A stretch of 34,221 bases of DNA from Verrucomicrobiota bacterium. GTDB lineage: Bacteria; Verrucomicrobiota; Verrucomicrobiia; Verrucomicrobiales; Akkermansiaceae. The stretch spans positions 1-34,221 of the forward strand of contig JAQCFL010000011.1 in the NCBI GenBank assembly GCA_027619375.1, given 5' to 3'. Below, piece after piece: positions 405 through 22,407 of the stretch (the stretch's first letter is position 1; every line of letters starts with the position of its first letter). The position numbers and the translations under genes were made by a program. The notes under the pieces are model-generated. The model saw only the letters and a program-made list of their open reading frames with translations. It was not told where the DNA came from and searched no databases.

Positions 405-464
405 CTGGCGGGTTGCCAGGGTCGTCCCTGAATTGTATTTGGAGCGGCGAGGTCGTCCTCGCTT
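405..464 (-). promoter_or_regulatory. Guanidine-II (mini-ykkC) riboswitch upstream of the SMR gene
   Basis: On the minus strand two perfect hairpins share an ACGA tetraloop: GCGAGG-ACGA-CCTCGC (462 to 447) and CAGGG-ACGA-CCCTG (430 to 417), separated by a 16-nt linker. Two ACGR-looped hairpins in tandem are the defining architecture of the guanidine-II class, whose usual target is an SMR exporter gene. The second hairpin ends 19 nt before the start codon at 397. A third possible hairpin, CTGGC-AACCC-GCCAG (419 to 405), shares three bases with the foot of hairpin two, so the two compete. I see no strong Shine-Dalgarno site between hairpin and start. Switching through exposure of the ribosome-loading region is therefore inference. 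Confidence 0.88.
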
Positions 465-6897: not shown

Positions 6898-9800
6898 TTA
6901 TTCGTCGAGATTCGCTTCGCGTTCAAACTGAGCCAGCAGTTCGGGGAGGGCAAGACGGCCGCGGGAGTATTTGGCGGCGTCGCTTTCCGGGAAGTCCCAG
7001 CGGCAGCGGTTGTAGCGGCGGAAGGCGTTGGGGATGTCGTTGCCCATGCGGTAGCTTTCGCCGGCCCAGAAGAGGGCCTGGGCGGTGAGTTCCTGCTCGG
7101 GGAAGCGCTTCACGAAGGCGTCGAAGGCCTCGCCGCCCTTCTGGAACTCCTCCAGCTTGTAGTGGCACTGGCCGATGCGGAAGGCCATCTTCGGGGTCCA
7201 TTCATGGTTGGGGAATTTCTCGAGGAATTTCGCGCCGACCGAGGCGGCGGTGGCGTAGTCCTCCTTCGTGTAGAAGTGCTCGTTGATGCGGAGCATGACG
7301 TTGGCGATGAGGGGGCTCTTCGGGTAGGTGCCGGCGAGGGTGACGTAGGCTTCCAGCGCCTCGTCGAGTTCGCCGGCCTCCTCGTGGCATTGGCCGAGTT
7401 TGTATTGGGCATCGGGGGCGAGGTTGTGGTCGGGGTGGTTGCGGACGATGGATCCGTAGGCGGCGATGGCTTCATCCCAGGCCTTCATTTCCTGGGCAAA
7501 CTGGCCGAGGAGATAGGAAACGCGGGGGGCGTATTTTGGATTCGGGTAGTCCTCCCGCAGTTCGCGCAGCACACGACGGCCGGATTGGAGATCGGCCTCG
7601 GCTTCTTCGAGGTGTTCGAGGGCGCGGTGGCTCTTGAAGAGTTCGAAGTAGCTCTCGGCGATGTGGAACTGGGTCTGGATGGCGAGGTCCTCGTCCTTGT
7701 AAACCTTGCTGAAGGCGGACATCTCGCCGTTGGTGCCGATGGCGACGGGGATGAGGCGCTCGATGATCGGTTCGCCGTCCGGAGTTTGCGGGACGTTGTC
7801 GAGGTAGCCGACCGTGATCTCATCGCCGAAGAAGCACTCGATGTTGCCGGCGAAGTTGCCGCTGGTGGGCGACTGCGAGGCGACGAGCGGGAAGGAGGCG
7901 CTGAAGACGCCGCTGTGGGTGAGGGTTTCCTCCAGTTCGATGGTTTCATCCTCGCCCGAGGCGGTGACGAGGCGGACGAGGGCCTTGTCGCGGCCGCTGG
8001 AGATGTCGCGGTCGGGATCGGCGAGGACGAGGAAGAGCTTTTTGCCGACGTGGGCGATTTCGGCGGGTTCGAGGTATTCCTCGTCGGTGATTTCGAGGCT
8101 GGCGGCGGAGGCGAGGGCGGCGGTGGCTTCGAGGGGCGCGGCGGTGCCGTCGGGGCGGGACTGATCCTCGTAGCTGGCCGTGAAGGTGTCGTTACCGAGG
8201 GTGTTGAGGACGAAAACGCCGGCCGCGGTTTTCGGGGATCCATCGTCGAGGAGGGCGGCGGGATCGACGATGACGGGCGGGAGGACCTTGCCGATGCTTG
8301 CTCTGGCAAAGGTCCCGTCGGCGGGGACCGCGGTGGCGCTTTGGGGGTCGCCGAGGAGGAGGGGGACCTGGCCGACAAAGCGGCCTTCGAGGAGGGCGGG
8401 ATTGCGGAACTCCTCGAGGGTTTCATCGGGAGTGGCGAGGGCGCGGGAGAGGACGCACTGCACCTGCACATTGGTGCCTTGGCTGGTGGCGATTTCCACG
8501 GTGATGGTGCTGCGCGAGTCGCGGGCCTGGTCGGGATCGATAACCTCCACGGTGAGGGGGAGGCGGTATTCGACCTTGCTGGTGTGGTCTTTGGCGAAGG
8601 CACCCGGGAGGAAATGCGGCGGGGCATCGACGGGGGTTTCGCTGTCCACGATCTGGATGCGGGCCGCGGTGGGTTCGTTGAGGAAGACGACCGTTTCGCG
8701 GTGGAAGGCGTGACCGGGGAAGGTGTTCTGAGTGTCCTTGTAGCGGAGGTAAACCTTGTCGCCCTGTTTCACGACAACCTTGCCGTCGACGGGGGTGGCG
8801 CTGGTCTCGATTTCGGCGAGGAAGACGCCGGTGGAGGAACCGGTCTCGGTGGCGGGGAGGGTGAAGGGCGGGTCGGCGTTGATCTGCACCTCGACCTCCA
8901 CGCTGTCCTTCTCGAGGCCGACATCGAGATCGAAATCAACCACCTCGGCGACGATGCGATCGCCGGGTTCGATGCGGAGGAGTTCCTTGCGGGTGCCATC
9001 GACCGAGCCACTGCCGCTGCGGGCGAAATCGTAGCCGATGGGGGTGATCCCGCCGTTGTAGTAGGTGGCGGTCAGCGACTTGGTGAGGAGGCGGTTGCTT
9101 TGCTCTCCGCCGGCGGTGAGTTCGTCGAGGTAGGAGACCAGCACCGTGTCGCCGGGGGCCAGTTCGAGGATGTCGTTGCTGGCGAGTTCGAGGACATTCT
9201 CGGCGGGCGGGATGTGTTTGGCACCGCCGCCGGAGATCTCGACGTTATTGATGGCGACGGCCTCGCCGCGGTATTCGAGGATGTCGAAATCGATGTAGCG
9301 CAGTTCGCGGGAGGGCATGGTGAGGGTCCATTGATTGGTCTCCTGCTTGATTTCGCCGAGGGGGGCGGGGACGACCTTGGCGAGGTCGGGCGCGGTGGTC
9401 GGGTCGAAATCGGCGGCGGCGAAGGGATGGAGGGAGATGGCGGAGGACTGGCGGTTTTCCCGGGCGCGGAGGGCCTGGGCGAGTTTCACCTGGGGGGTGG
9501 CGATGGAGAAGATGGTGAGGTCGTGAATGCCGCGCGTGGCGAAGACATCGACCTGACGGCCGCTTTCGCCGACGGGAAGTTCGAGGCGGCCGTCGAAGAG
9601 GACGGCGGTGGACCTTCCCGCGACATCGAAGCGCACCGCGCCGTTGCGTTCCTGGACGAAGGGACCCGACCAGACCAGGAAGTAAGCGTCCTCGCCCTCC
9701 TCGGGAGCCTGCCAGGAGAGGGTCTCGACCGTGCTGGTTTCGGTCGCCTCGACCTTGGCGGTGAGTTCGGCGATCTCCTGCCAGGTGTAAGTTTCGCGGA

Positions 9801-12800
9801 GGTTCTTGGCTTCGGTTTTGTAAACGCGGAGCTGCATGCCCTCGCCGGGGAGTGCGAGTTTGGCGGGTGGTTCGGGGGTGGGGAAGGCGGCGAGGTTGAA
9901 CCAGAAGCGGCCGTCGTGGCTGCCGCAGACCTGCAGGCGGACGGGGGCCTCCTGCTCTGCCTGCGGCGAGGTCAGGGTGATCATTTCGGTGGGGCGCAGT
10001 TCCTTCATGTCCACGGAGAGCGACTTCGGCGCGGCGCCGTCGGGTTCGCTGCGCCAGGCGGTGTCGAGGGAATGGTCGATGGCCATCAGCGGGCTGTGGT
10101 CGAGGGCGGAGTCGGAGGCGCTGGCGCCGGCGGGGAGTTCGCCGGTGCGGGCCATGCCGAGGAAAAGTCCTCCGTGTTGGCTGGCTTCCTCGATCTGCAT
10201 TTGCACCTCGTCGCCACTGGAGGCGGTGAGCTTGATGCCGACGGGGTCCGCCTCGCCGGTGAGGTCGCGGTCGCCGTCCTTGACCTGGATGTAGATGAGG
10301 TTGCCGGGCTTGATCTGGTTTTGCGGCCGGGTGGCGGCGCGGGGTTGTTCCTCTTCGGTCTCGGCGACTTCCTGTTTGAGTGTTTCGGTGAAGGTGGCGT
10401 CGTCCTCGTTGATGATTTCGCTGCTGGCCACCTGGAGATCGCCGTCGGAGGCGATACGGATGCGGGTGTTGCTGAGGAACTCGAACTGGAACTGCTTTTT
10501 GAAGTCCTCGGGGTAGTCCACCGTGATGGTGTCGCCGCCGGTGACCTGCAGGATACCGTCGCCGGGTTTGGCGCCGCCGAGGGTGGTCGGAAACTCGGTG
10601 AGGAAGATCCCCTTGCCCGCGCCGCCGCTGGTGAGGAAGCCCTGCTCCAGATCGCCGCCTGGTTCGGTGCGCACAACGACCGGGATGCGGGTGTCGCCGC
10701 GGCTGATGCCGAGGTCGGGGTCCAGCACGACGACCGAGAGGGCGTTGCCGGGGGTATGCCAGACCTTGGATTCCTGCCCGAGGCGGCCGACGGTGCGGAG
10801 TGTCTCGAGTTGGGTGAGGTAGCGCTGCTCGATGCCGTAAACCTCGGCGAGGTTGTAGAGCGTTTCGTTGGCGAGCTCGGCGTCGGGGGCGTGTTCGAGG
10901 ACGGAGAGGAAGATGGCGCGGGCCTCCTGGTTGTTGTCCTGGCGGATGGCGAGAACGCCGCTGAGGAAATCGGCACGGATGGAGATGGAGGGATCGGTGC
11001 TCTCGGCGAGGTCCGCGAAAATGTCCGCGGCCTGGTCGTAAACTTTCTGGGCCATGTAGGTTTCGCCGATGCCGAAGCGGGCATCGACCGACTCGGGTTG
11101 ATCCTTGTAGATATTGAGGACCGTCGTGAATTCGGCGCGGGCGATATCGAACTGCCGGGCCCGTTGGTAGTTTCGCGCGAGGAGAAGCTGGACGCGGGCC
11201 TTTTCGCGGATGTCGACCTTGTCGGACTCGCTGAACTTGAGCATCCATCCGCGGAGGATGTCCTCGGCCCGCTCGTGATCCTGCGGCGTGCCCTGGTCGA
11301 TGTGGGTTTGTGCCCCGAAGAGGATGAGTTCCACGGGCAGGTCCTCGCGGTGGGCGTCGAAGAGGGCCTTGTTGGTGTAGTAGGCCTCTTCGGCGAGGGT
11401 GTTTTCACCGAGGCGGAGGTGGAGGATGATTTCCAGGAGCGGGGCGATGGGGCTGTCGGCGGGGATGTCGGCGCTGAGGCTGCCCATCTTGCCATAGGCG
11501 TTGCGGAGGAGGGAGCGGGCCTCGGTCATCTCGTTGTTCCCGACCGAGCGGATGGTGTTGAGGAGGCCGTTGAGGATGGTGGTGGCGAGGCTGAGGTCCT
11601 CCCGGGCGAGGGCTCCCTGGGCGTAGGGGAAGAGGCGGTTCCAGGATTCGTAATGGGACTCGGCCATGAGGAGGAAGTCCTGCGCTTGGAGAAGGCGGTC
11701 GAGGGATCTTTTCGTGGTGCCGAGCAGCTCCATGCCGGCCTCCGCACTGACGCGGCCGAGGCGGAGGTCGCGCACGATTTGGAAGACGCGGGCCTTCTTC
11801 TCGTCGGGCCATTCCTTCTCGCCGCGGGCCGTCTCGATCCAGGTGCGGACCGGCCACTCGCCGAGTTTCCAGGGCCGGAAGGGATCCTGATCGGCGCGGG
11901 CCCGGGATTGCTTGAGGATCGTTTCCATGGCCTCGAAATTTCCGGCGGCAAAATCGAGGGCGGCGATTTCGCCGGCGTAGGTCCCCTGGTGGTCGGTGTC
12001 GGCCTCGAAGCGGGAGAGGAGGAAGGCCCGGGCGGCGGCGGGTTCCATGGTCGAGGCGACGCGTCTGGCGCAGGAGGCGCACTCGTGATTGTTGGGGTCC
12101 AAATCCATGTGTGCCTTCCACCAGGCGAGTGCTTCGGCCTTCATGCCGAGCTCATTCATGACATCGCCGATGCGGGTGGCATGGGCGAGGGATTCGCTGC
12201 TTTGTTTGGCGGAGGCGGTGATCCAGGGGATGGCCTTGCGGACGAGGGCCTCGTCCTTGGGTTCGATCAACCGCCACCAGGTGTCGTAGTGGGCAGGGCC
12301 GGGGGGGATGGTGAGGAGGTGGTTTGCGGCGGCGAGTTTCATCTCCGGCGGGCCGTAGGCGGCGGCGTCGAGCCAGCGGCTGGCGGCGTCGAGATCCTGG
12401 GGGAAGGCCTTGCAGAGGGTTTCGTAGTGGGTGCCGGAGACCTCCTTGGACTTTCCGCCGAGGTGATGGCGATAGACGTAGGCGAGGCGGGCGAGGACTT
12501 GATGGCGTTGTTCGGTGTTGAGCGTTTGCTGGAGGAGTTGCTGGCAGGCTTGTCCGGACCTGCCGCCGTCTTCGAGGGTCTGTTTCCAGAGTTTCGTGGT
12601 GCCGTCGTTGAGGTGATTTCTCCTGGCCTCCTGCCAGGTGCGTTGGCGGGTCTTGTCCTGAGGTCCGCGGTTCCAAACGCGGTCCTGGAAGCCGGCGAGG
12701 TGGGGGAAGGCCTTGGCGCTGGCGGTGACGGCGGCGAGGTCTTTGGCAAAGGCCGTTTCGTTGGAGGCGGAGTCGTAGAGGTAGGCGGTGATCTCGTCGA

Positions 12801-14013
12801 CCCAGCCATTTTCAGTGGGGGAATCGGCGAGGAATTTCTGGGCGATGGCGCGGGCCTTGCCATCGTCCTTGAGGCGGTCGCGATAGACATCGAGGGCGAG
12901 GACGGCGCGGAGCGTGGCGACGCCGGGCGGGTTCCCGCCGATGAGTTTGAGGAGTCCCTGCTCGGCCCGTTTGTGATCGTCGCCGCACCATTGGACATAG
13001 GAACGGGCAAGGTCGCCGAGGTTGGGGTTGGCGCGCATGACCTCCTCGGCGATGGCGAGGCCCCGGGCAGTGTCCTTGGCCTGCGCGGCGGCCCCGGCGG
13101 CCTGGGCGAGTTGGTCATAGCGATCGTCGCGTTGGGGAAAGGCGGCGAGGTAGCGGCGGGCCTCGGCCTCGATATCGGCGGGGGGCTTGGCGGCGCTGCT
13201 CATGGCTTGGATGAGGGCGCGATGGATGTCATCGCGTCCGGGAGTGAGGGCCTTGCGGAAGGACTCCACGGCATTTTCGTGCTGGCCGAGGTGGGATTCG
13301 AAGCGGCCGCTACGATACCAGAGGTCCCTTTGGCGGAGTTCGTTGAACGGTGCTTGGCGGCGGAGGAGGGCCTTGGCGAGTTGGAGGCCTTCGGTCCATT
13401 GCTCGGTGCGCTCGGCGGCTTCCATGCCCTGAAAACCGACGGCAGTGAGGGTGACATCAACGGGAAGTTTCTCGACCATCTCGGTGGCGAGAGTGGTGGC
13501 CTCTTTGAAGGCGCCGCCGTTGTTGGCCAGCATGGAGAGTTGGAGGGAGCGGAGGCCGTCTGCGGTGGCGCCGCCGTTGCGCCAGATCTCGCCGCGTTGG
13601 GTGGCGGCCTGACTGCCGCGGCCGGTGCGTTCGATGGCGGTGGCGAGGCGGTGGCGGGCCGGATTGGTGAGAGGATTGCCGGGGAAGAGTTCCAGAAACT
13701 GGCGGCCGGTGGTGATGACATCCTCGTGGCGGGAGGTGACTGCGTAGCCATCCATGAGCTTGAGCATGATCTCGGCGCGGCGGGGATGCTCGGGTTGGGC
13801 GCGGGAAAATTTCGAGGCGGTGCGGATGAGGCCGAAGACCTGCTCGTCGGCCCAGTAGAGATCGATGAGTTGCAGCATCAGTGCCGCGCCGCCGGGGGAG
13901 GACTCGGCGGTTTCCTTGAGTTTGGCTTCCAAGGCGACCGCTTCATCCGCCGGAGCGGCGGTGAGGGGAATGGCGAGGGCAAGAATGAGGATGATGGACT
14001 TGAGAGAGCGCAT
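6898..14013 (-). CDS. Giant secreted TPR / beta-sandwich / discoidin-like protein (2371 aa)
   Basis: It begins with a signal peptide (MRSLKSIILILALAIPLTAA). Residues to roughly 1070 are helical TPR-like repeats. From about 1090 come beta-rich modules of a shared pattern, D-x-D-x-D near the start and SGVF or TGVF near the middle, then a GD-x-(I/V)-x-V-x-Y-x-D end. Examples are LDPDLGISRGDT near 1094, VVDFDLDVGLEKDS near 1690, IDPDQARDSRST near 1820 and LADPDRDISSGRDK near 1993. A discoidin (F5/8 C)-like segment near 1300-1400 reads AIDHSLDTAWRSEPDG then CGSHDGRFWFNLAAFP. TPRs return from about 2110 to the end (YGSIVRNHPDHNLAPDAQYK). It is probably a periplasmic or surface scaffold that binds partners and glycans; this is inference. 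Its stop lies 3 nt before the ExbB start. A 2512-codon antisense frame over it is a composition artefact. Confidence 0.85.
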   Translation of the reverse strand: MRSLKSIILILALAIPLTAAPADEAVALEAKLKETAESSPGGAALMLQLIDLYWADEQVFGLIRTASKFSRAQPEHPRRAEIMLKLMDGYAVTSRHEDVITTGRQFLELFPGNPLTNPARHRLATAIERTGRGSQAATQRGEIWRNGGATADGLRSLQLSMLANNGGAFKEATTLATEMVEKLPVDVTLTAVGFQGMEAAERTEQWTEGLQLAKALLRRQAPFNELRQRDLWYRSGRFESHLGQHENAVESFRKALTPGRDDIHRALIQAMSSAAKPPADIEAEARRYLAAFPQRDDRYDQLAQAAGAAAQAKDTARGLAIAEEVMRANPNLGDLARSYVQWCGDDHKRAEQGLLKLIGGNPPGVATLRAVLALDVYRDRLKDDGKARAIAQKFLADSPTENGWVDEITAYLYDSASNETAFAKDLAAVTASAKAFPHLAGFQDRVWNRGPQDKTRQRTWQEARRNHLNDGTTKLWKQTLEDGGRSGQACQQLLQQTLNTEQRHQVLARLAYVYRHHLGGKSKEVSGTHYETLCKAFPQDLDAASRWLDAAAYGPPEMKLAAANHLLTIPPGPAHYDTWWRLIEPKDEALVRKAIPWITASAKQSSESLAHATRIGDVMNELGMKAEALAWWKAHMDLDPNNHECASCARRVASTMEPAAARAFLLSRFEADTDHQGTYAGEIAALDFAAGNFEAMETILKQSRARADQDPFRPWKLGEWPVRTWIETARGEKEWPDEKKARVFQIVRDLRLGRVSAEAGMELLGTTKRSLDRLLQAQDFLLMAESHYESWNRLFPYAQGALAREDLSLATTILNGLLNTIRSVGNNEMTEARSLLRNAYGKMGSLSADIPADSPIAPLLEIILHLRLGENTLAEEAYYTNKALFDAHREDLPVELILFGAQTHIDQGTPQDHERAEDILRGWMLKFSESDKVDIREKARVQLLLARNYQRARQFDIARAEFTTVLNIYKDQPESVDARFGIGETYMAQKVYDQAADIFADLAESTDPSISIRADFLSGVLAIRQDNNQEARAIFLSVLEHAPDAELANETLYNLAEVYGIEQRYLTQLETLRTVGRLGQESKVWHTPGNALSVVVLDPDLGISRGDTRIPVVVRTEPGGDLEQGFLTSGGAGKGIFLTEFPTTLGGAKPGDGILQVTGGDTITVDYPEDFKKQFQFEFLSNTRIRIASDGDLQVASSEIINEDDATFTETLKQEVAETEEEQPRAATRPQNQIKPGNLIYIQVKDGDRDLTGEADPVGIKLTASSGDEVQMQIEEASQHGGLFLGMARTGELPAGASASDSALDHSPLMAIDHSLDTAWRSEPDGAAPKSLSVDMKELRPTEMITLTSPQAEQEAPVRLQVCGSHDGRFWFNLAAFPTPEPPAKLALPGEGMQLRVYKTEAKNLRETYTWQEIAELTAKVEATETSTVETLSWQAPEEGEDAYFLVWSGPFVQERNGAVRFDVAGRSTAVLFDGRLELPVGESGRQVDVFATRGIHDLTIFSIATPQVKLAQALRARENRQSSAISLHPFAAADFDPTTAPDLAKVVPAPLGEIKQETNQWTLTMPSRELRYIDFDILEYRGEAVAINNVEISGGGAKHIPPAENVLELASNDILELAPGDTVLVSYLDELTAGGEQSNRLLTKSLTATYYNGGITPIGYDFARSGSGSVDGTRKELLRIEPGDRIVAEVVDFDLDVGLEKDSVEVEVQINADPPFTLPATETGSSTGVFLAEIETSATPVDGKVVVKQGDKVYLRYKDTQNTFPGHAFHRETVVFLNEPTAARIQIVDSETPVDAPPHFLPGAFAKDHTSKVEYRLPLTVEVIDPDQARDSRSTITVEIATSQGTNVQVQCVLSRALATPDETLEEFRNPALLEGRFVGQVPLLLGDPQSATAVPADGTFARASIGKVLPPVIVDPAALLDDGSPKTAAGVFVLNTLGNDTFTASYEDQSRPDGTAAPLEATAALASAASLEITDEEYLEPAEIAHVGKKLFLVLADPDRDISSGRDKALVRLVTASGEDETIELEETLTHSGVFSASFPLVASQSPTSGNFAGNIECFFGDEITVGYLDNVPQTPDGEPIIERLIPVAIGTNGEMSAFSKVYKDEDLAIQTQFHIAESYFELFKSHRALEHLEEAEADLQSGRRVLRELREDYPNPKYAPRVSYLLGQFAQEMKAWDEAIAAYGSIVRNHPDHNLAPDAQYKLGQCHEEAGELDEALEAYVTLAGTYPKSPLIANVMLRINEHFYTKEDYATAASVGAKFLEKFPNHEWTPKMAFRIGQCHYKLEEFQKGGEAFDAFVKRFPEQELTAQALFWAGESYRMGNDIPNAFRRYNRCRWDFPESDAAKYSRGRLALPELLAQFEREANLDE

Positions 14014-14250: not shown

Positions 14251-16425
14251 TCAAAATCCTGCTTTTTTGAGCGCTTCGACGATCTTGTTGGCTTCCGAGG
14301 CGATCTCGCTTTCGGGGTAATCGTTGATGAGTTGTTCGAAGCGGCGGCGAGCCTCTGGTTTGCGGTTCAGCTTGTAGAGGCAGCGGCCGTAGTTGAAGAG
14401 GATGACGTCGAGGAAGTTGGCGTCGGGGTGGTCGGTGAGGACATTTTCGAAGACATCGACGGCGCGGGAGTAGTCCTCCTTCTGGTAATAGAAGGCGGCC
14501 ATTTTCGCCACCGCATCGCCGACCCTTCCGGAGTCGGGGAATTGCTCATAGACCGCCTGATAGGCGAGGAAGGCCTTCTCGAAGAGTTGTGCGGACTGAG
14601 CGGAGTCGGCCTTGAGGGCCATGGCCTCGTAGCATTCGCCGACGTAAAACTGGCCCTCGCCACGGAGGGGGCTGTTGGGGAGTTTGGAGAGGCTGGCGTA
14701 GAGGCTGATGGCGCGGGGAAAGTTTTCGCGCTTTCGTTCGACGTGGGCCTGCTGGAGCATGGCCTCATCGATGAAGGCGCTGGAGGGGAACTCGGCGAGG
14801 AGGCGGCGGCTCATGCCGAGGGCGAGGTCGAGTTGGTCCATGGCGAAGTAGATGCGCCAGAGTTGCACGTAGGTTTCCTCGAGGAGGGAGCCGCCGACCT
14901 TGCGGGCCTGCTCGAGGATGTCCTCGCAGACATCGAGAGCCTCCGCGTATTTCAGGTCGGCCTTTGTGTTGAGGCCGAATTCCTTGTAGTGGTTGCCGAC
15001 CTCGGTGAGGGCGGAGGCGGTGCGGAGTTGGGTTTTGAGGCGGAGTTCCTCATCGGAAATCTCGGTGCGGGTGACGCGGACTTCGCCGAGGTTGCCCTCG
15101 ATGACGCGGGCCTCGGCGGTGCGGACGAGGGTGTTTTCGCCGAGGTGGCGTTCGTCGGCGTAAACAAGGCGGATGGTCTGTCCGGCCTCGGCGGTGAGGG
15201 TGCCGGGGGCGGTGCCGAGTTGGAGGGGCAGGGAAAGGCGGAAGACGCCGCTTTGTTCGCTTTCGCGGAGGACGACCGGCTCGGAGCGGACGAGGAGGAG
15301 GGGATCGATCTGCGACTTGAGGTCCTCCCCTTCGGGGCCTTCGACCAGTTCGCCGCTGGCGACGCGCTTGGCGAGTTCATCGTCGATTTCGTCGGGCGTC
15401 TTGCGGCGGAAAATCTGCACGGCGGCCTCCAGTTGGTCGGCGCCGGCGGTGGTGTCGTGGTCGGCATCGGAAACCTGGAGGTGGATGGGTTTGCCGAGCA
15501 CGGCGGCCTGCAAATTGCGTTGGTAGGAACCATCGGTGATGCGGGCGAGGCCGTTGCCCACCACGAGGACCTCCTTCAAGCGCTTCTCGTTGACGCCCTT
15601 CTCGGCGGTGTGGGCGTCGATGTAGGAAACGGTGACCACGTCGCCGCCGCGGACTTCGAGGGTGCCGTTGTCGGGGGTGGCGGGGGCGAGGGTGGTCATG
15701 ATGCGGCCGAGGGCGATGCGGGCATTGCGGCCGACCGGGTCGCAGCGGAGGGTTTCCTCGTCGCCGCTCTTTGTGCGGCAGCGGACCTCGACCTGCTCGC
15801 CCTGGGTGAGGATGGCGAAGTCCTTGTCGTCGATCTTGATGTAGAGGCGCTTTCCCGCCTCGACCTTTTCGACGAGGGCGTCCTGGGAAGAAAGGGAGGT
15901 GCCGACCTTTTCGAGGGCCTCGATGGCGCGGCTGTAGTGGCCGAGTTTGAAGTGGCCGAGGCCGATGTAGTAGTAGGCCTCGTTGACTTCCGGGGAGGTC
16001 GGGAAGAGCGCGATGACGTCGCGCATGATGGTGAAGCATTTCCCGTAGTTGCCGGCCTCGTAGAAGCAGGTGCCGGTGTTGAGGAAGGCGTAGGCGCGTT
16101 GCTCGTCGTTCTCGTTGCTCTCCACGGCGGCGGCCTCGTAGTGGAGGCGGGCCTTGTCGTATTCCCTGATTTCCTTGAGGAGATGATCGGCGAGGCGGAG
16201 GTGGGCCTCGAAGCGGACGGGGCTGCGCGGGTAGCGTTCCACGACCGATTCCCAGATCTCGAGGGCCTTTTCGTTTTCGCCGACTTCCAGACGGGCGTCG
16301 CCGGCCTGGAGGAGTTTGCGGGCCGCGCGGTCCTCGATGATCGAACCGCGTTCGGCCGTCTCCGGCGATTGGGCGAGGGCGGGCAGCGCGAGGAGGAGGG
16401 CGAGGAGGGTGATGAATGTGCGCAC
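14251..16425 (-). CDS. Secreted TPR protein with beta-sandwich insert (724 aa)
   Basis: It starts at GTG 16425, giving the signal peptide MRTFITLLALLLALPALAQS. TPR-like helices fill residues about 25-180 (YYYIGLGHFKLGHYSRAIEA) and about 430-724 (ARRRFEQLINDYPESEIASE at the end). Between them are two beta-rich modules that share the pattern of the giant neighbour: IKIDDKDFAILTQGEQVEVR ending GGDVVTVSYIDAH, and VSDADHDTTAGADQ leading to SEQSGVFRLSLPLQ and GQTIRLVYADE. The two proteins therefore belong to one architectural family and may act together. The start is 5 nt after the DUF1501 stop, suggesting co-translation; no Shine-Dalgarno site is evident. Function is unknown; a periplasmic or surface scaffold is inferred from the signal peptide and repeats. 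Confidence 0.85.
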   Translation of the reverse strand: MRTFITLLALLLALPALAQSPETAERGSIIEDRAARKLLQAGDARLEVGENEKALEIWESVVERYPRSPVRFEAHLRLADHLLKEIREYDKARLHYEAAAVESNENDEQRAYAFLNTGTCFYEAGNYGKCFTIMRDVIALFPTSPEVNEAYYYIGLGHFKLGHYSRAIEALEKVGTSLSSQDALVEKVEAGKRLYIKIDDKDFAILTQGEQVEVRCRTKSGDEETLRCDPVGRNARIALGRIMTTLAPATPDNGTLEVRGGDVVTVSYIDAHTAEKGVNEKRLKEVLVVGNGLARITDGSYQRNLQAAVLGKPIHLQVSDADHDTTAGADQLEAAVQIFRRKTPDEIDDELAKRVASGELVEGPEGEDLKSQIDPLLLVRSEPVVLRESEQSGVFRLSLPLQLGTAPGTLTAEAGQTIRLVYADERHLGENTLVRTAEARVIEGNLGEVRVTRTEISDEELRLKTQLRTASALTEVGNHYKEFGLNTKADLKYAEALDVCEDILEQARKVGGSLLEETYVQLWRIYFAMDQLDLALGMSRRLLAEFPSSAFIDEAMLQQAHVERKRENFPRAISLYASLSKLPNSPLRGEGQFYVGECYEAMALKADSAQSAQLFEKAFLAYQAVYEQFPDSGRVGDAVAKMAAFYYQKEDYSRAVDVFENVLTDHPDANFLDVILFNYGRCLYKLNRKPEARRRFEQLINDYPESEIASEANKIVEALKKAGF

Positions 16426-16430
16426 GTTTA

Positions 16431-17684
16431 TCAGACGAACAATTCGCGGATGGGGTTGGCTTCCTTGCGGACTAGGCGCATGGGGCGGCCCTGCGGGGTG
16501 TAGAGTTCCTTGCTGAGGCTGATGCCGAGGGCGTGGCAGAGGGAGGCGTGGAGATCGGGAACCTGCACGGGGCGATCGGCGGGTTCCATGCCGTCCTCAT
16601 CGGAGGCTCCGATGGTGCCGCCCTTGATGCCGCCGCCGGCCATCATGGCGCTGAAGCACCGGGCCCAGTGGTCGCGGCCGCCGCCGTCGTTGATGCGCGG
16701 AGTGCGGCCGAATTCGCTGAGGACGACGACGAGGGTTTTGCTGAGCATGCCGTTGGCCTTGAGATCGGAAAGGAGGGAGGCGATGGCGGGGTCCATGACG
16801 TTGCCGTGGTCGCGCATCGCTTCGAAAATGTTGCCGTGGTTGTCGAAGCCGCCGCGGTTGACCTGTACGAAGCGCACCCCTTTTTCGACGAGACGTCGGG
16901 CGAGGAGGGCGCCGCGGCCGAACTCGGTGTCGCCGTAGCGCTCGATGGTCTGCGTCTTCTCCTCCTCGAGATCGAAGGCTTTGAGAGCGGGGCTTTCCAT
17001 GAGGGCCACGGCATCCTTGAGGGCCGTTTCGGAGGCCTTCAACTCGCTGGCTCCGAGGGTCTCGGAGGAGCGGCGGTTCATCCTTTCGAGGATCTGCAGG
17101 CGCTGCATGCCCCGGGCGTGGCTGATGCCTTCGGGGAAGGCGAGGTAGGGATCCTTTTCGCCGGGGCGACCGACGTAGTAGGCTTCGCATTGCTGGCCGA
17201 GGTAGCCGGCGCGGGCTGACTGGCCGCTGATGCTGACGAGGGCGGGGAGGTCGCCGAGCGGTTCGCGTTCGTGGACGACGAGGGAGCCGAAGCCGGGGTG
17301 GAGAATGTTGGGTGATTGGTTGAAGCCGGTCTGCAACTCATACTGGGCGCGGCCGTGATCGCCGTTGGTGCCGGCGATGGAGCGGATCAGCGCGGCGTTG
17401 TGCATCTGCTTGGCGAGCTGCGGGAAAATCTCGGAGATTTCCATGCCCTCCACGGAGGTCTTGATGGGTTTGAACTCGCCCTGTGTCTTGCGGCCGGGTT
17501 TGGGATCCCAGGTGTCGAGGTGGCTCATGCCGCCGCTGTTCCAGAAGAGGATGACGTGTTCGGCGGAGGCCTGACCGGGGAGGGTCCGGGCGAGGAGCTG
17601 GCTGATCGGCATGCCGAGGATGCTCGCGCTGAACAACTTCAGCATGCGGCGGCGGGTGATCTGGTAGTCTGTGCAGGTGTTCAT
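16431..17684 (-). CDS. DUF1501 family protein with Tat-like signal
   Basis: A 417-residue protein. ATG 17684 (MNTCTDYQITRRRMLKLFSA) is preferred to an in-frame TTG two codons upstream. The N-terminus has a twin-arginine-like TRRRMLKLF followed by a hydrophobic stretch, so export by Tat is likely. The body matches DUF1501, a family distantly related to sulfatases and alkaline phosphatases. Visible are HVILFWNSGGMSHLDTWDPK near the N-terminus, SIAGTNGDHGRAQYELQTGF, and VVVLSEFGRTPRINDGGGRD with DHWARCFSAMMAGGGIKGG. DUF1501 genes are very often paired with PSCyt/DUF1549/DUF1553 cytochrome genes in Planctomycetota and Verrucomicrobiota, as here with the gene upstream. Substrate is unknown; a role in degrading sulfated or complex polysaccharides is often suggested from gene context. 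Confidence 0.92.
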   Translation of the reverse strand: MNTCTDYQITRRRMLKLFSASILGMPISQLLARTLPGQASAEHVILFWNSGGMSHLDTWDPKPGRKTQGEFKPIKTSVEGMEISEIFPQLAKQMHNAALIRSIAGTNGDHGRAQYELQTGFNQSPNILHPGFGSLVVHEREPLGDLPALVSISGQSARAGYLGQQCEAYYVGRPGEKDPYLAFPEGISHARGMQRLQILERMNRRSSETLGASELKASETALKDAVALMESPALKAFDLEEEKTQTIERYGDTEFGRGALLARRLVEKGVRFVQVNRGGFDNHGNIFEAMRDHGNVMDPAIASLLSDLKANGMLSKTLVVVLSEFGRTPRINDGGGRDHWARCFSAMMAGGGIKGGTIGASDEDGMEPADRPVQVPDLHASLCHALGISLSKELYTPQGRPMRLVRKEANPIRELFV

Positions 17685-17693
17685 TTCCAAAGG

Positions 17694-17752
17694 AGTTGAA
17701 AGTTAGGAATTAGGAGTTAGGAGTTAGAAGTAGGGAGTTAGAAGTAGGGAGG
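17694..17752. repeat. AGTTAGGA-type tandem repeats before the DUF1501 gene
   Basis: A run of 6-8-bp units of the AGTTAGGA type is followed by a perfect 14-bp tandem repeat, AGTTAGAAGTAGGG at 17722-17735 and 17736-17749. It starts about 10 nt upstream of the DUF1501 ATG. The transcribed strand is C/T-rich here. Confidence 0.85.
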
Positions 17753-17760
17753 TGGGTTTC

Positions 17761-17992
17761 GGTCCCGGAGGGACCATTGATGTTAGCCGTGGGCTTTAGC
17801 CCACGGAATGGTAGGAAGTTTGATCGCGTCGCGTAGTGACGCTACTGTGGAGCGGCGGTCGATCCCGGTTGAAGCGTCACTACGCGACGCGGGCTTTTGT
17901 TCGTGGTTGACCGTGGGCTGAAGCGCACGGCTAACATGAGGTGTCTCGCCTGGACGCAGGGAATGAGGTGTCCCGCCGGGACGCGGTGATCG
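17761..17992. repeat. Nested inverted repeats and 27-bp tandem repeat between DUF1501 and DUF1549 genes
   Basis: This spacer has no gene but is densely structured. There is a hairpin GGTCCC-GGA-GGGACC (17761-17775). An outer inverted repeat pairs 17780-17806 with 17911-17937 (25 of 27 positions); the left outer arm is itself a hairpin, CCGTGGGC-TTTA-GCCCACGG, and the right arm is an imperfect one. An inner perfect 18-bp inverted repeat pairs GCGTCGCGTAGTGACGCT (17826-17843) with 17873-17890. Then comes an imperfect tandem repeat, ATGAGGTGTCTCGCCTGGAC with its copy ATGAGGTGTCCCGCCGGGAC, up to about 17992. The whole could fold as one large nested stem. Confidence 0.85.
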
Positions 17993-18027
17993 GGGCGACG
18001 CCTTGAGACGGGTTGGCGGTTGGTTGC

Positions 18028-20463
18028 TCACGGAAGAAATCTAAATTCGTTGGAGTTGAGGAGGGCCCAGCGGAGGTCGGCCATGCCATCCGCGCCGGAG
18101 GCGATGATGACCCGGGCGTCGGCTTTTTCTCCGGGGCTGGGGAGGCGGGTGAGGATTTCCTGGTAGGCCCAGTCGATGGCTTGATCTGGGTTGCTCTCGA
18201 GGATGCGGTGGAGGGGTTCGAGGGGGCCGACGCGGGAGGCTTCCAGGGTCATGCGGCCGTTGAGCATCATGAGCTGTTGGCGCAGGGAGGAGGCTTTGTC
18301 GCGAAACTCGCCGAGGCCGGTGCGGGGCGGTTGGCCGAAGACGCGGAGGAAGTGGGCGGGGGGGGCGGGGGTGGCCATGCGCATGGCGCTGTCGAAGCGG
18401 GGGTTGTCGTCGATTGTTTCGGTGACCGTCTCTGTCTCAAACTTCATGACGCGGCGTTGCTGATCCTTGGCCATGGCCGCCATTTTTTCTGCCTCGATTT
18501 GTTCGTCGGACTTCTCCCGCATCGTTTCGAGTTCGGCACGTTCCCTAGCCTTGGTGATGGCGTTGAAGTCGAGGGTGAGGGAGGACTCGAGGTCGTAGCC
18601 GTCGGCGCGCATGGGCGGGGCTTTCTGCATCATGGCTTGGTCCCCGGCGGGGCCATCGAGCATGGTGTATTCGCCGGTGGGGACCTGGATTTCGCGGCTG
18701 ATTTCCTTCTTGTTCGCGCCGGCGGGCCATTTGAAATCCTCCAGGTGTCCGGCCACCACGATGCTATCGTAGAGCACTTCGCCAAGCATGCGCCGGAGGG
18801 GGGCGGCGGAGAAGTTCTGCTCGCTCTCCTCGCGAATGGCGATCTTCACCTCCGCGGAGAGGTGGGCGCGGCGGTAGGCATCGGAGAGGGTGATGATGCG
18901 GACGAGGCTGCGCAGGTCGTAGCCGCTGGCGATGAATTCCTGGGAGAGGAAATCGAGGGTCGAAATGTGGTGGAGGTCGCTGTAGTCGGAGAAGTTGTCG
19001 AGCGGTTCGACGAAGCCATGGCCGATGAGTTCGGCCCAGACGCGGTTGACGAAGGCCCGGGCGAAGTAGTTGTTGCGGGGGTCGGTGATGAGGGCTGCGA
19101 GTTGGGCCCGCAACTCGCTGGAGCGGTAGATGTCGCCATGCACGTTGAGTTGGCGGCTTTCCTTTTGGGCCTCCTCGAGGACGGGATCGCGGGGGCGGCC
19201 GACCTTGGGTTCCACGGCATCGAGGAGGGCGTCGAGAGAGGCGGTTTCCTCGCCGGAGGATTTCTCCTCGTCCTTGTGGCTGCGGAGTTCCTCAAGACGT
19301 CGGAGGTGGTCGGGGGGCGAGTCGAATTCGGTGAGGAGGAAGGGAAATTTCGGCGGGACGGCCTTGCGCTTTTCTGGTTCGGCCTTGTCCTCGGGGGGCC
19401 AGAGGACCGTCATCTCGTCGCCTTCGGTGGTGTACACCATGCCCCGTTGGCGGCTTTCGACCTTCTTGGTTTTGCCGAAGAAGGCGGCGAGGTCGTAGAA
19501 GTCACGCTGTTCCCAATCGTCGAAGGGATGGTCGTGGCACATGGCGCAGCCGATGCGGACGCCGAGGAAGATCTGCGAGGTGGCGGCGGCGAGTTCCATG
19601 GGCATGGCGTTGTCGCCGAGGATGAAGCCGACGGCGGGGTTGGAGTTGGCGCGTCCGGAGGCGCCGATGAGTTCGCGCACCAGTTCGTCGTAAGGTTTGC
19701 CCTGGTTGAGGGAGCCGTGGATGTAGGCGAGGAGTTGGTTGCCCCCGGGGACGTCGGAACGGATGCGGAGCATGTCGGCCATGAAGATGGTCCAGCGGTC
19801 GGCGAAGCGGGGGTGGGTGAGGAGTTTGGCGATGAGCTTGGCGCGGCGGTCGTTGCCCCAGCCTTCGAACGCGCGGACCTCGGCCATGGTGGGGATGCGG
19901 CCGATGAGGTCGATGGTGGCGCGGCGGAGGAAGGCGGCGTCCTCGATGGGGTCGGTGGTGATGATTTTCGCGCCGCTATTTTCCCGGCGGAGGAGGTCGT
20001 CGAGCATGGCGGCGGCCTCGGCGGGGGAGGCGGGGGCCTTGTCCGGCATGGCGACGCGCTTGATCGGCGCGGGTTTGCGTTCGGTCAGGGTGATGCCCTT
20101 TGGCCAGGGGGCCCCGGCGCTGACCCAGGAATCGAGCAGGGCGACCTCCTCCGGGGCAAGTGCCTGGCCTTCGTCGGGCATGACGCCCTCGTCGATGGGG
20201 CGGAGGTGGATGCGGACGAGGAGTTCGCTCTTGGCGGGGTCGCCGGGGACGAGGGCCAGTTCGGTCTCGCCGCCCTCGAGGAGGAGATCGTGGGTATCCA
20301 TCCGGAGGCCGCCTTTGGTTTTGTCGGCATTGTGGCAGCGGACGCAGTTGCGCTCGAGGATGGGCTGGATGTCCTGCTGGAAATCGGGCGTTGCGGCAGG
20401 GGCGGAAAGGGCCATCACCAGAAGGGCGAGGGCGGGGAGTGGGATGGAAAAACAGGGGTGCAC
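18028..20463 (-). CDS. PSCyt1 / DUF1549 / DUF1553 secreted c-type cytochrome protein
   Basis: About 811 residues from GTG 20463, which gives the signal peptide MHPCFSIPLPALALLVMALS before APAATPDFQ; the frame stays open to 20712 but that extension looks non-coding. The planctomycete-type cytochrome c segment has DIQPILERNCVRCHNADKTK (haem CxxCH at about 40-44) and VMPDEGQALAPEEVALLDSW. The DUF1549 region contains RRATIDLIGRIPTMAEVRAF and the second conserved CAMCHDHPFDDW near residue 306. DUF1553 follows with NYFARAFVNRVWAELIGHGF and LSDAYRR. Such proteins are exported, bind haem, and are usually encoded beside a DUF1501 gene, as here. Their redox partner and substrate are unknown. The 288 nt upstream to the next gene are GC-rich with no recognisable signal. 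Confidence 0.9.
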   Translation of the reverse strand: MHPCFSIPLPALALLVMALSAPAATPDFQQDIQPILERNCVRCHNADKTKGGLRMDTHDLLLEGGETELALVPGDPAKSELLVRIHLRPIDEGVMPDEGQALAPEEVALLDSWVSAGAPWPKGITLTERKPAPIKRVAMPDKAPASPAEAAAMLDDLLRRENSGAKIITTDPIEDAAFLRRATIDLIGRIPTMAEVRAFEGWGNDRRAKLIAKLLTHPRFADRWTIFMADMLRIRSDVPGGNQLLAYIHGSLNQGKPYDELVRELIGASGRANSNPAVGFILGDNAMPMELAAATSQIFLGVRIGCAMCHDHPFDDWEQRDFYDLAAFFGKTKKVESRQRGMVYTTEGDEMTVLWPPEDKAEPEKRKAVPPKFPFLLTEFDSPPDHLRRLEELRSHKDEEKSSGEETASLDALLDAVEPKVGRPRDPVLEEAQKESRQLNVHGDIYRSSELRAQLAALITDPRNNYFARAFVNRVWAELIGHGFVEPLDNFSDYSDLHHISTLDFLSQEFIASGYDLRSLVRIITLSDAYRRAHLSAEVKIAIREESEQNFSAAPLRRMLGEVLYDSIVVAGHLEDFKWPAGANKKEISREIQVPTGEYTMLDGPAGDQAMMQKAPPMRADGYDLESSLTLDFNAITKARERAELETMREKSDEQIEAEKMAAMAKDQQRRVMKFETETVTETIDDNPRFDSAMRMATPAPPAHFLRVFGQPPRTGLGEFRDKASSLRQQLMMLNGRMTLEASRVGPLEPLHRILESNPDQAIDWAYQEILTRLPSPGEKADARVIIASGADGMADLRWALLNSNEFRFLP

Positions 20464-20751
20464 GAGGGTTGGCCGAGCGCGGGAGAACCCGATCAGGATA
20501 GTTACGCCGGGGAGGAAGAAGACCTTACCATTGGATTTGTGGGGATGGGGCCTTTTTTTTCCGATTTCCCGAAAGAGGGCTCGGCGGGGTTGAGGGGGGG
20601 ATTTTCCCGGCAGGGTCCTCCCTCCAAGGGGCCGGGCATCGGGCTTGGCGCTTGGTGGGCGGAGGCGCGGCGGCGGCCAGCCCGGGACCCGGGCGCTTGG
20701 AGCCGGACCCACTCCGGCGCAACATCCGACTCTTTCCTCGAGCAGGAACGA

Positions 20752-22308
20752 CTACTTCGCCTTGGGGGGGGTGGTGGTCGCCGGGGTTTCCTCGGGAAGA
20801 GATTTTTTGTCCTCCTTGAAACCGGCGAGGATGCTGCGGCCTTCCTCGACTTGTTCCGGGCTGATTTGGGAGGTGAGTTCGCCGAGCGGAGCGGCGGCGT
20901 CCTTGTCGCCGCGTTCCATGGCGAGGGAGAAGAGGGCCCAGGCCTGCGGGAGGTTCTGTTTGGTGCCCGCCCCTGCGGCGTTGAGTCGGCCGAGGGCGGT
21001 GGTGGCCTGGGGATGGCCGGCATTGGCGGCCTGCACGTAGAGTTTTCCCGCCTGCGCAAAACTCTTTGGGACGCCGACCCCTTGTTCGTAGAGGGCCCCC
21101 AGATTGTAGGCGGACTGGGGATAGCCAGCGCTGGCGGAGCGGCTGAACCAGGCGGCGGCGGCCAAGCTTAACCAGTGTCCGAGCCGCCCGGAGAGGTAGA
21201 AGAGGCCGAGTTCGTTTTGCACATCGGCCGGTCCGCTCTCGGCGGCGGCGAGGAGGTGGGCATAGCCCTCCACGATTTGCAGGCCTTCGCCTTTCAAGAG
21301 GGCCGCGGCGGCCTGCACATGGCCGATGGCGTTGCCGGCCTCGCCTGCCTTTTTATACCAGACGAGTGCCTCCTCGGGACTCTTCGGCAGTCCGCCCCGA
21401 CCCTCCAGGTGAAAGGCGGCCACCTTGAGCATGCAGTCGGACTGCCCCGCCTCGGCTCCCTTTTTGAATTCGGCCAGGGCGGCGGAGTCGTCCTTTTTGA
21501 TGGCCTCCTCGAAATTCCCGAGGGCGATGTAGGCGTTGAGTTCATCCTTGGCGATGGCCTTGGCGAGCCATTCGCGGCCGAGGGCTTCGTCGCGGAGTTT
21601 CTCCTCGCCGCTGAGGAGGCGTGAACCTGCGGCGAGCATGGCGGAGGCATCGCCCAGCTCGGCGGCCTTGAGGAACTGGCTGAGGGCCGCGGCAGGGTCG
21701 CGCTGCTCGGGGAATCCGAAGTCGCCATCGAGGAGACGGCCGAGGGCGAGCAGGGCGGAGACATCACCCTGCTCGGCGGCCCGCGACCACCAGAAGCGGG
21801 CCTTCTCGAAGTCGGGTTCGTCGCCGAAGCTGCCGCGAAGGAGGCCGTCCCCGAGGAGGAGGGCGGCGGTGCCGGTGTCCTTCTCGGAAAGTTGTTTCAG
21901 CAGCTCCCATGCCTCTTCCTGCTCGGCTTTTTCGCCGGCGGAGGTGAGGAGGCGGGCCAGGCGGGTGGTGGCTTCGGTGCTGCCGGCCTTGTGGGCCTTG
22001 CGGTAGTGTTCGATGGCCAGGTCGCGGGAGGCTTCCACGCCACTGCCGGTCTCGTAGGCAAGGGCCAGGATGAGAAGGGCGTCGGCATTGCCCGCCGCAG
22101 CGAGCGGGGTGGCCAGACGCACCCCTTCGATGTGGCGGCCCCGGTTGAAGGCCTCGATGGCGGCTTTGGCCGGGCTGTCGGGAGTGCCGGTCACCGGGCT
22201 TTCCGGGGTCGCCTCGGCCAGGATCGGATCATCGACTTCTAAGGTGATCGCCGCAGGGGCGCTGATGGAAAGCAGAGTGAAGGCGAAGAGGGTGGCCAGA
22301 GATTTCAT
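20752..22308 (-). CDS. Secreted Sel1-repeat (SLR/TPR-like) protein
   Basis: A 518-residue protein starting at ATG 22308 so that MKSLATLFAFTLLSISAPAA forms a signal peptide; the open frame extends 25 codons further without a better start. It consists of Sel1-like repeats of about 36 residues with the typical A-x(2)-G-x-(A/S)-x-A and W-(Y/F)-x-K-A-A pattern. Examples are ARFWWSRAAEQGDVSALLAL, ALVWYKKAGEAGNAIGHVQA, and AAWFSRSASAGYPQSAYNLG followed by GALYEQGVGVPKS. The tail is Lys/Thr/Pro-rich (ATTTPPKAK). Sel1 repeats mediate protein-protein contacts, often in envelope or signalling complexes. This is the first gene of the minus-strand cluster and is divergent from the MscS gene 99 nt away, so the shared spacer should hold promoters for both; I could not identify one. 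Confidence 0.88.
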   Translation of the reverse strand: MKSLATLFAFTLLSISAPAAITLEVDDPILAEATPESPVTGTPDSPAKAAIEAFNRGRHIEGVRLATPLAAAGNADALLILALAYETGSGVEASRDLAIEHYRKAHKAGSTEATTRLARLLTSAGEKAEQEEAWELLKQLSEKDTGTAALLLGDGLLRGSFGDEPDFEKARFWWSRAAEQGDVSALLALGRLLDGDFGFPEQRDPAAALSQFLKAAELGDASAMLAAGSRLLSGEEKLRDEALGREWLAKAIAKDELNAYIALGNFEEAIKKDDSAALAEFKKGAEAGQSDCMLKVAAFHLEGRGGLPKSPEEALVWYKKAGEAGNAIGHVQAAAALLKGEGLQIVEGYAHLLAAAESGPADVQNELGLFYLSGRLGHWLSLAAAAWFSRSASAGYPQSAYNLGALYEQGVGVPKSFAQAGKLYVQAANAGHPQATTALGRLNAAGAGTKQNLPQAWALFSLAMERGDKDAAAPLGELTSQISPEQVEEGRSILAGFKEDKKSLPEETPATTTPPKAK

Positions 22309-22407
22309 GTGGGGGGGAGGGTAGATCAGCGGTGGGGCCTTGCAAGAAAATGCCGCGTGGAGGGCTGGTTGCCTGCGTGACAATCAGGGGGAGGGCTGCT
22401 AGCGGTA

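Follow-up and report, generated by a model that had tools for sequence, protein, structure and literature searches.

Organisation of the locus

Close to the beginning of the window (the whole stretch of 34,221 nucleotides that was analysed), the minus strand carries two hairpins with ACGA loops in the leader of an SMR gene, which is split over two reading frames as assembled. The features of the locus, with the evidence for each, are as follows.

462–447, minus strand: P1 hairpin, GCGAGG-ACGA-CCTCGC (sequence; Rfam RF01068; helix 1 of alignment A1)
446–431, minus strand: P1–P2 linker, 16 nt, whose UCCAA could pair weakly with UUGGA of codons 2–4 (sequence)
430–417, minus strand: P2 hairpin, CAGGG-ACGA-CCCTG (sequence; Rfam RF01068; helix 2 of alignment A1)
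416–398, minus strand: spacer from P2 to the AUG, 19 nt, without a Shine-Dalgarno (SD) sequence (sequence; anti-SD duplex energy)
397–395, minus strand: ATG start of the SMR gene (sequence)
397–269, minus strand: N-terminal SMR/Gdx part, 43 aa, with the ATG start (P0003; PF00893, NCBIfam and PDB matches)
272–262, minus strand: net +1 frameshift splitting the SMR gene (PF00893 in two frames, one stop; relatives intact)
267–85, minus strand: C-terminal SMR/Gdx part, 60 aa, with stop TAA at 87–85 (P0002; PF00893, NCBIfam and PDB matches)
433–387, minus strand: predicted unbound (OFF) fold, which excludes P2 (MFE fold; prediction only)

The locus is adjoined on the plus strand by a gene for a divergent SUI1-type translation initiation factor (624–1055; PF01253, 57.7 bits). 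Further along lie, on the minus strand, two very long TPR-repeat proteins in a row (6898–14013 and 14251–16425; 2371 and 724 aa) and a DUF1501 gene adjoining a PSCyt1/PSCyt2/PSD1 gene (16431–20712), as well as a Sel1-repeat protein (20752–22383). The pairing of a DUF1501 gene with a PSCyt1/PSCyt2/PSD1 gene is typical of Planctomycetota and Verrucomicrobiota, and the presence of both genes on the contig supports a host from the PVC group, probably an uncultured member of Verrucomicrobiota. Mis-binning of the contig was ruled out, as the protein of 525 aa encoded nearby is matched best (83%) by a genome of the same genus.

Identification of the aptamer

A sequence-only reading of this DNA had described two perfect hairpins with ACGA loops, separated by 16 nt and lying 19 nt before an ATG, and their coordinates, stems, loops and spacings all proved correct on the minus strand. 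The same reading had recognised in them the mini-ykkC architecture, and the covariance model bore this out: RF01068 (Guanidine-II, mini-ykkC) covers 464–417 (minus strand) over the full model, positions 1–48, with 47.7 bits (E = 1.2e-6) against a curated gathering score of 32 bits, and is the sole Rfam match within the window. Scanning for paired hairpins with ACGR loops, stems of at least five perfect pairs and a spacing of 7–40 nt returned one pair in the window and none in 300 Markov-1 shuffles of it; the aptamer folds with a z-score of -4.1, and none of 200 shuffles folded equally well. The 16-nt linker satisfies the published range for Guanidine-II, which is 7–40 nt (PMC7544219) and mostly at least 13 nt (PMC5486947). 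Like RF01068, the locus combines two GC-rich ACGR-loop stems with a linker of at least 13 nt and a position 5' of an SMR exporter, the start codon likewise following P2 by approximately 18–20 nt. The element is present in a single copy in the genome, beside the sole SMR gene found there, and no Guanidine-I element was found elsewhere in the genome.

Conservation among relatives points in the same direction. In an alignment of 33 related copies (A1), 96.7% of the stem cells are paired and double changes occur in 8 of the 11 pairs; helix 1 (P1) is 96% paired, with double changes in five of its six pairs, and helix 2 (P2) is 97.5% paired. Neither the share of paired cells nor the covariation score was equalled by any of 500 shuffles; three of them had as many doubly changed pairs, and none of the slid structures came near. 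The G-C pairs closing both loops are invariant across the 33 copies, and at the locus both loops read ACGA. Copies in relatives almost always precede SMR genes, at 11–30 nt (median 18) from P2 to the AUG. Exceptions to this placement are a Guanidine-II-like pair below the cut-off in L105 (genome G104, 1501–1550; 28.7 bits), which has no SMR start behind it, and some weak matches. Two such weak Guanidine-II-like matches occur in genome G959 (L124, 590–638, and L126, 127–173); both contain the hairpin GGGCGGGACGACCTGCCC, possibly a repeat, and no SMR start was seen behind that in L124.

We read the hairpins as a guanidine aptamer because the covariance-model score, the shuffles, the covariation and the consistent placement before SMR genes agree, and the segment 464–417 (minus strand) is very probably a Guanidine-II (mini-ykkC) riboswitch in the leader of gdx/sugE, a gene for a guanidinium exporter of the SMR family. 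That the hairpins instead match by chance, bind a protein or act as a terminator is highly improbable in the face of these four lines of evidence. The one terminator-like site of the scan does coincide with P2 (417–430), though on the plus strand; however, 0.8 such sites are expected by chance in a region of this kind, and no plus-strand gene was seen to end at 417–430. Transcription attenuation was also considered and set aside, as the minus strand shows nothing resembling a terminator in positions 1–700 of the window.

The interrupted exporter gene

The gene downstream, taken for an SMR gene in the sequence-only reading, is recognisable as SMR/Gdx-like, but it does not form an intact reading frame in the assembly. 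PF00893 matches in two pieces lying in different frames, model positions 1–43 at 397–269 and 41–93 at 276–118, with 48.5 and 41.7 bits, respectively (cut-off 23.7 bits). Both pieces have SugE as their best NCBIfam match and Gdx-Clo (PDB 6wk5) as their best PDB match, and together they retain E13, W16, S42, Y59 and W62 (Gdx-Clo numbering), as Gdx-Clo itself does. W16 is conserved in Gdx and is Gly or Ala in Qac, so that it separates the subtypes; roles of E13, S42, Y59 and W62 have also been described (PMC7695847). By its sequence, the protein is thus of the guanidinium-exporter (Gdx) type. It differs from Gdx-Clo in that its frame is broken by the net +1 shift, and a single uninterrupted frame of approximately 105 aa is absent from the assembly.

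The break either was introduced by the assembly or marks a gene that has only lately become a pseudogene, and we lean towards an error because nothing else has decayed: both SMR halves and the aptamer are otherwise intact, and all key residues are retained. The site also lies in a short C run, no more than 275 bases from a contig end, in a draft of 466 contigs that is 84% complete, where assembly errors are likelier. The less probable reading, though by no means a negligible one, is that the riboswitch is real and the gene a recent pseudogene; the frameshift would then be present in the cell, no exporter would be made and the leader would be a relic. In keeping with this, PF00893 is split across two frames with a stop, a genome of the same genus has neither the Guanidine-II element nor an SMR gene, and the full-length SMR genes read from relatives have an intact frame, none of them showing a comparable break (L119, L146 and L148 are partial). 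Programmed +1 frameshifting was considered unlikely, as the relatives read through in one frame.

Guanidine export regulated by guanidine, which had been predicted for this locus, is accordingly backed by an aptamer and a Gdx-like gene, but the frame is interrupted and regulated export cannot be read from the sequence as assembled. The frameshift is a warning against annotating a working exporter here.

Distribution in the lineage

Few annotated examples had been expected in this lineage. Guanidine-II is indeed scattered, but it is not rare: it was detected in 13 of 98 sampled relatives (12 of the 86 of good quality), 24 of 387 genomes sampled from the order (22 of 269), 20 of 384 from the class and 21 of 388 from the phylum (17 of 311), in samples that overlap. 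Named genomes of Opitutaceae, Opitutia and Chthoniobacterales that hold near relatives of the SMR gene (L044, L050, L052, L054 and L066) are without the riboswitch. The nearest SMR protein, at 81% over both pieces, is that of L102 (genome G124), which belongs to the order but to a different family; riboswitch-bearing members of its own family reach at most 68%. Judged by these sequences, a closest protein outside the family would fit either a patchy loss or a transfer inside the order. None of the papers searched treats mini-ykkC together with Verrucomicrobia; the survey carries a riboswitch class that has been studied well into a phylum undiscussed in the papers found.

A leader without a Shine-Dalgarno sequence

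The spacer before the ATG, CAACCCGCCAGCTACGTC, contains no SD sequence, its best duplex with the anti-SD being at +1.2 kcal/mol. Pairing with the anti-SD that counts as strong (at least as stable as -4 kcal/mol) was present in only 2 of 16 riboswitch leaders of the order and 8 of the 28 in the set for the entire phylum, against all 11 proteobacterial leaders; the p-value of this contrast (1e-6) is overstated, since the leader sequences are related. The distance from P2 to the AUG is almost equal in phylum and proteobacterial leaders. The leader before the nearest SMR protein, that of L102, has a very similar spacer and start and is likewise SD-free, whereas its SMR frame is intact (103 aa) and that of the locus is broken. 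SD use of approximately 10% has been reported for Spartobacteria, and some Verrucomicrobiae are SD-scarce (PMC10783764). Since the phylum is known to make little use of SD sequences, their absence here is a trait of the lineage and not a peculiarity of the riboswitch.

Translation is the level at which published Guanidine-II switches act (PMC9561414, PMC12186494), and in the models proposed for them an SD or ribosome binding site is what becomes hidden: the SD would be masked by the linker in Escherichia coli (PMC9300104) and by a P0 helix in Pseudomonas aeruginosa (PMC9561414), and the model for G. violaceus has a stem-loop that overlaps both P2 and the ribosome binding site (PMC5486947). In contrast to all three, the locus has no SD between P2 and the AUG, and its expression platform must therefore act otherwise. 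The SD as the regulated element belongs to the usual platform model and lies outside the definition of the aptamer. Aptamer and spacing to the start codon (median 18 nt) are thus retained by the class where its usual target is missing, and the question of how a translational riboswitch works in a bacterium with mostly SD-free genes becomes testable. Taken as a whole, the locus appears from its sequence to be an ordinary, well-supported guanidine-sensing RNA switch with two departures from the textbook, the frameshifted exporter gene and the SD-free leader; these two, together with the spread of the class in the phylum, are what the present analysis adds.

Predicted pairing of the start region

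By analogy with published work on the family, guanidinium bound in both ACGA loops would bring P1 and P2 into a kissing interaction, which would hold P2 formed and raise translation of the exporter, as in a translational ON switch. Folding predictions tentatively suggest what the unbound state might look like: the 5' arm of P2 and the linker may pair with bases around the AUG and codons 2–5, in which case the start region, instead of an SD sequence, would be the controlled target. In the MFE fold, 433–426 pair with 394–387, 425–423 with 401–399 and 419–415 with 409–405, so that the 5' arm of P2 and part of the linker are engaged by codons 2–5 and by bases before the AUG, and the AUG itself (397–395) is left in a bulge. 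The predicted pairing probability of P2 is 0.00 in the leader of the locus and 0.66 with shuffled downstream sequence.

A platform of this direct kind, in which linker or P2 pairs with the start and early codons and regulation does not run through RNA decay, transcription or a protein, is possible, and we put it forward with some reserve. Complementarity to the start region recurs in several leaders (L099, L100, L008 and L002), and one compensatory change separates the locus from its nearest relative, linker and codon 4 having changed together from CCCAA/UUGGG in L102 to UCCAA/UUGGA, or the reverse. Over 28 leaders, P2 is disrupted by the downstream sequence more than by shuffles of it (p = 0.027), and the linker–start duplexes are better than those of shuffled linkers, with p of approximately 0.05 (rank) and 0.026 (Fisher), all these tests being exploratory and uncorrected. 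Against this, the significance is marginal, and modelled accessibility of the AUG does not rise once P1 and P2 have formed: there was no overall difference between the two states (p = 0.51), and at the locus the AUG is predicted to be free at 0.87 in the unbound fold and 0.67 in the P1+P2 fold. Release of the AUG upon formation of P1 and P2, not being seen overall in the models, was dropped; pairing between linker and start was not accepted as a general rule, its significance being only marginal, and was kept as a hypothesis.

An SD-free start-codon platform is, on these models, a reasonable hypothesis and not a result. It is conceivable, if rather doubtful, that in the SD-poor bacteria of the phylum Guanidine-II opens and closes the start and first codons through P2/linker pairing with no SD involved; if true, the expression platform would include the beginning of the coding sequence. 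The best candidates for such a platform are L099 and L100 (riboswitch at 1501–1549), in which a long part of the linker is complementary to bases preceding the start codon, TTTGATAAT pairing with ATTATCAAA over 9 bp in L099 and 12 pairs forming around a bulge in L100.
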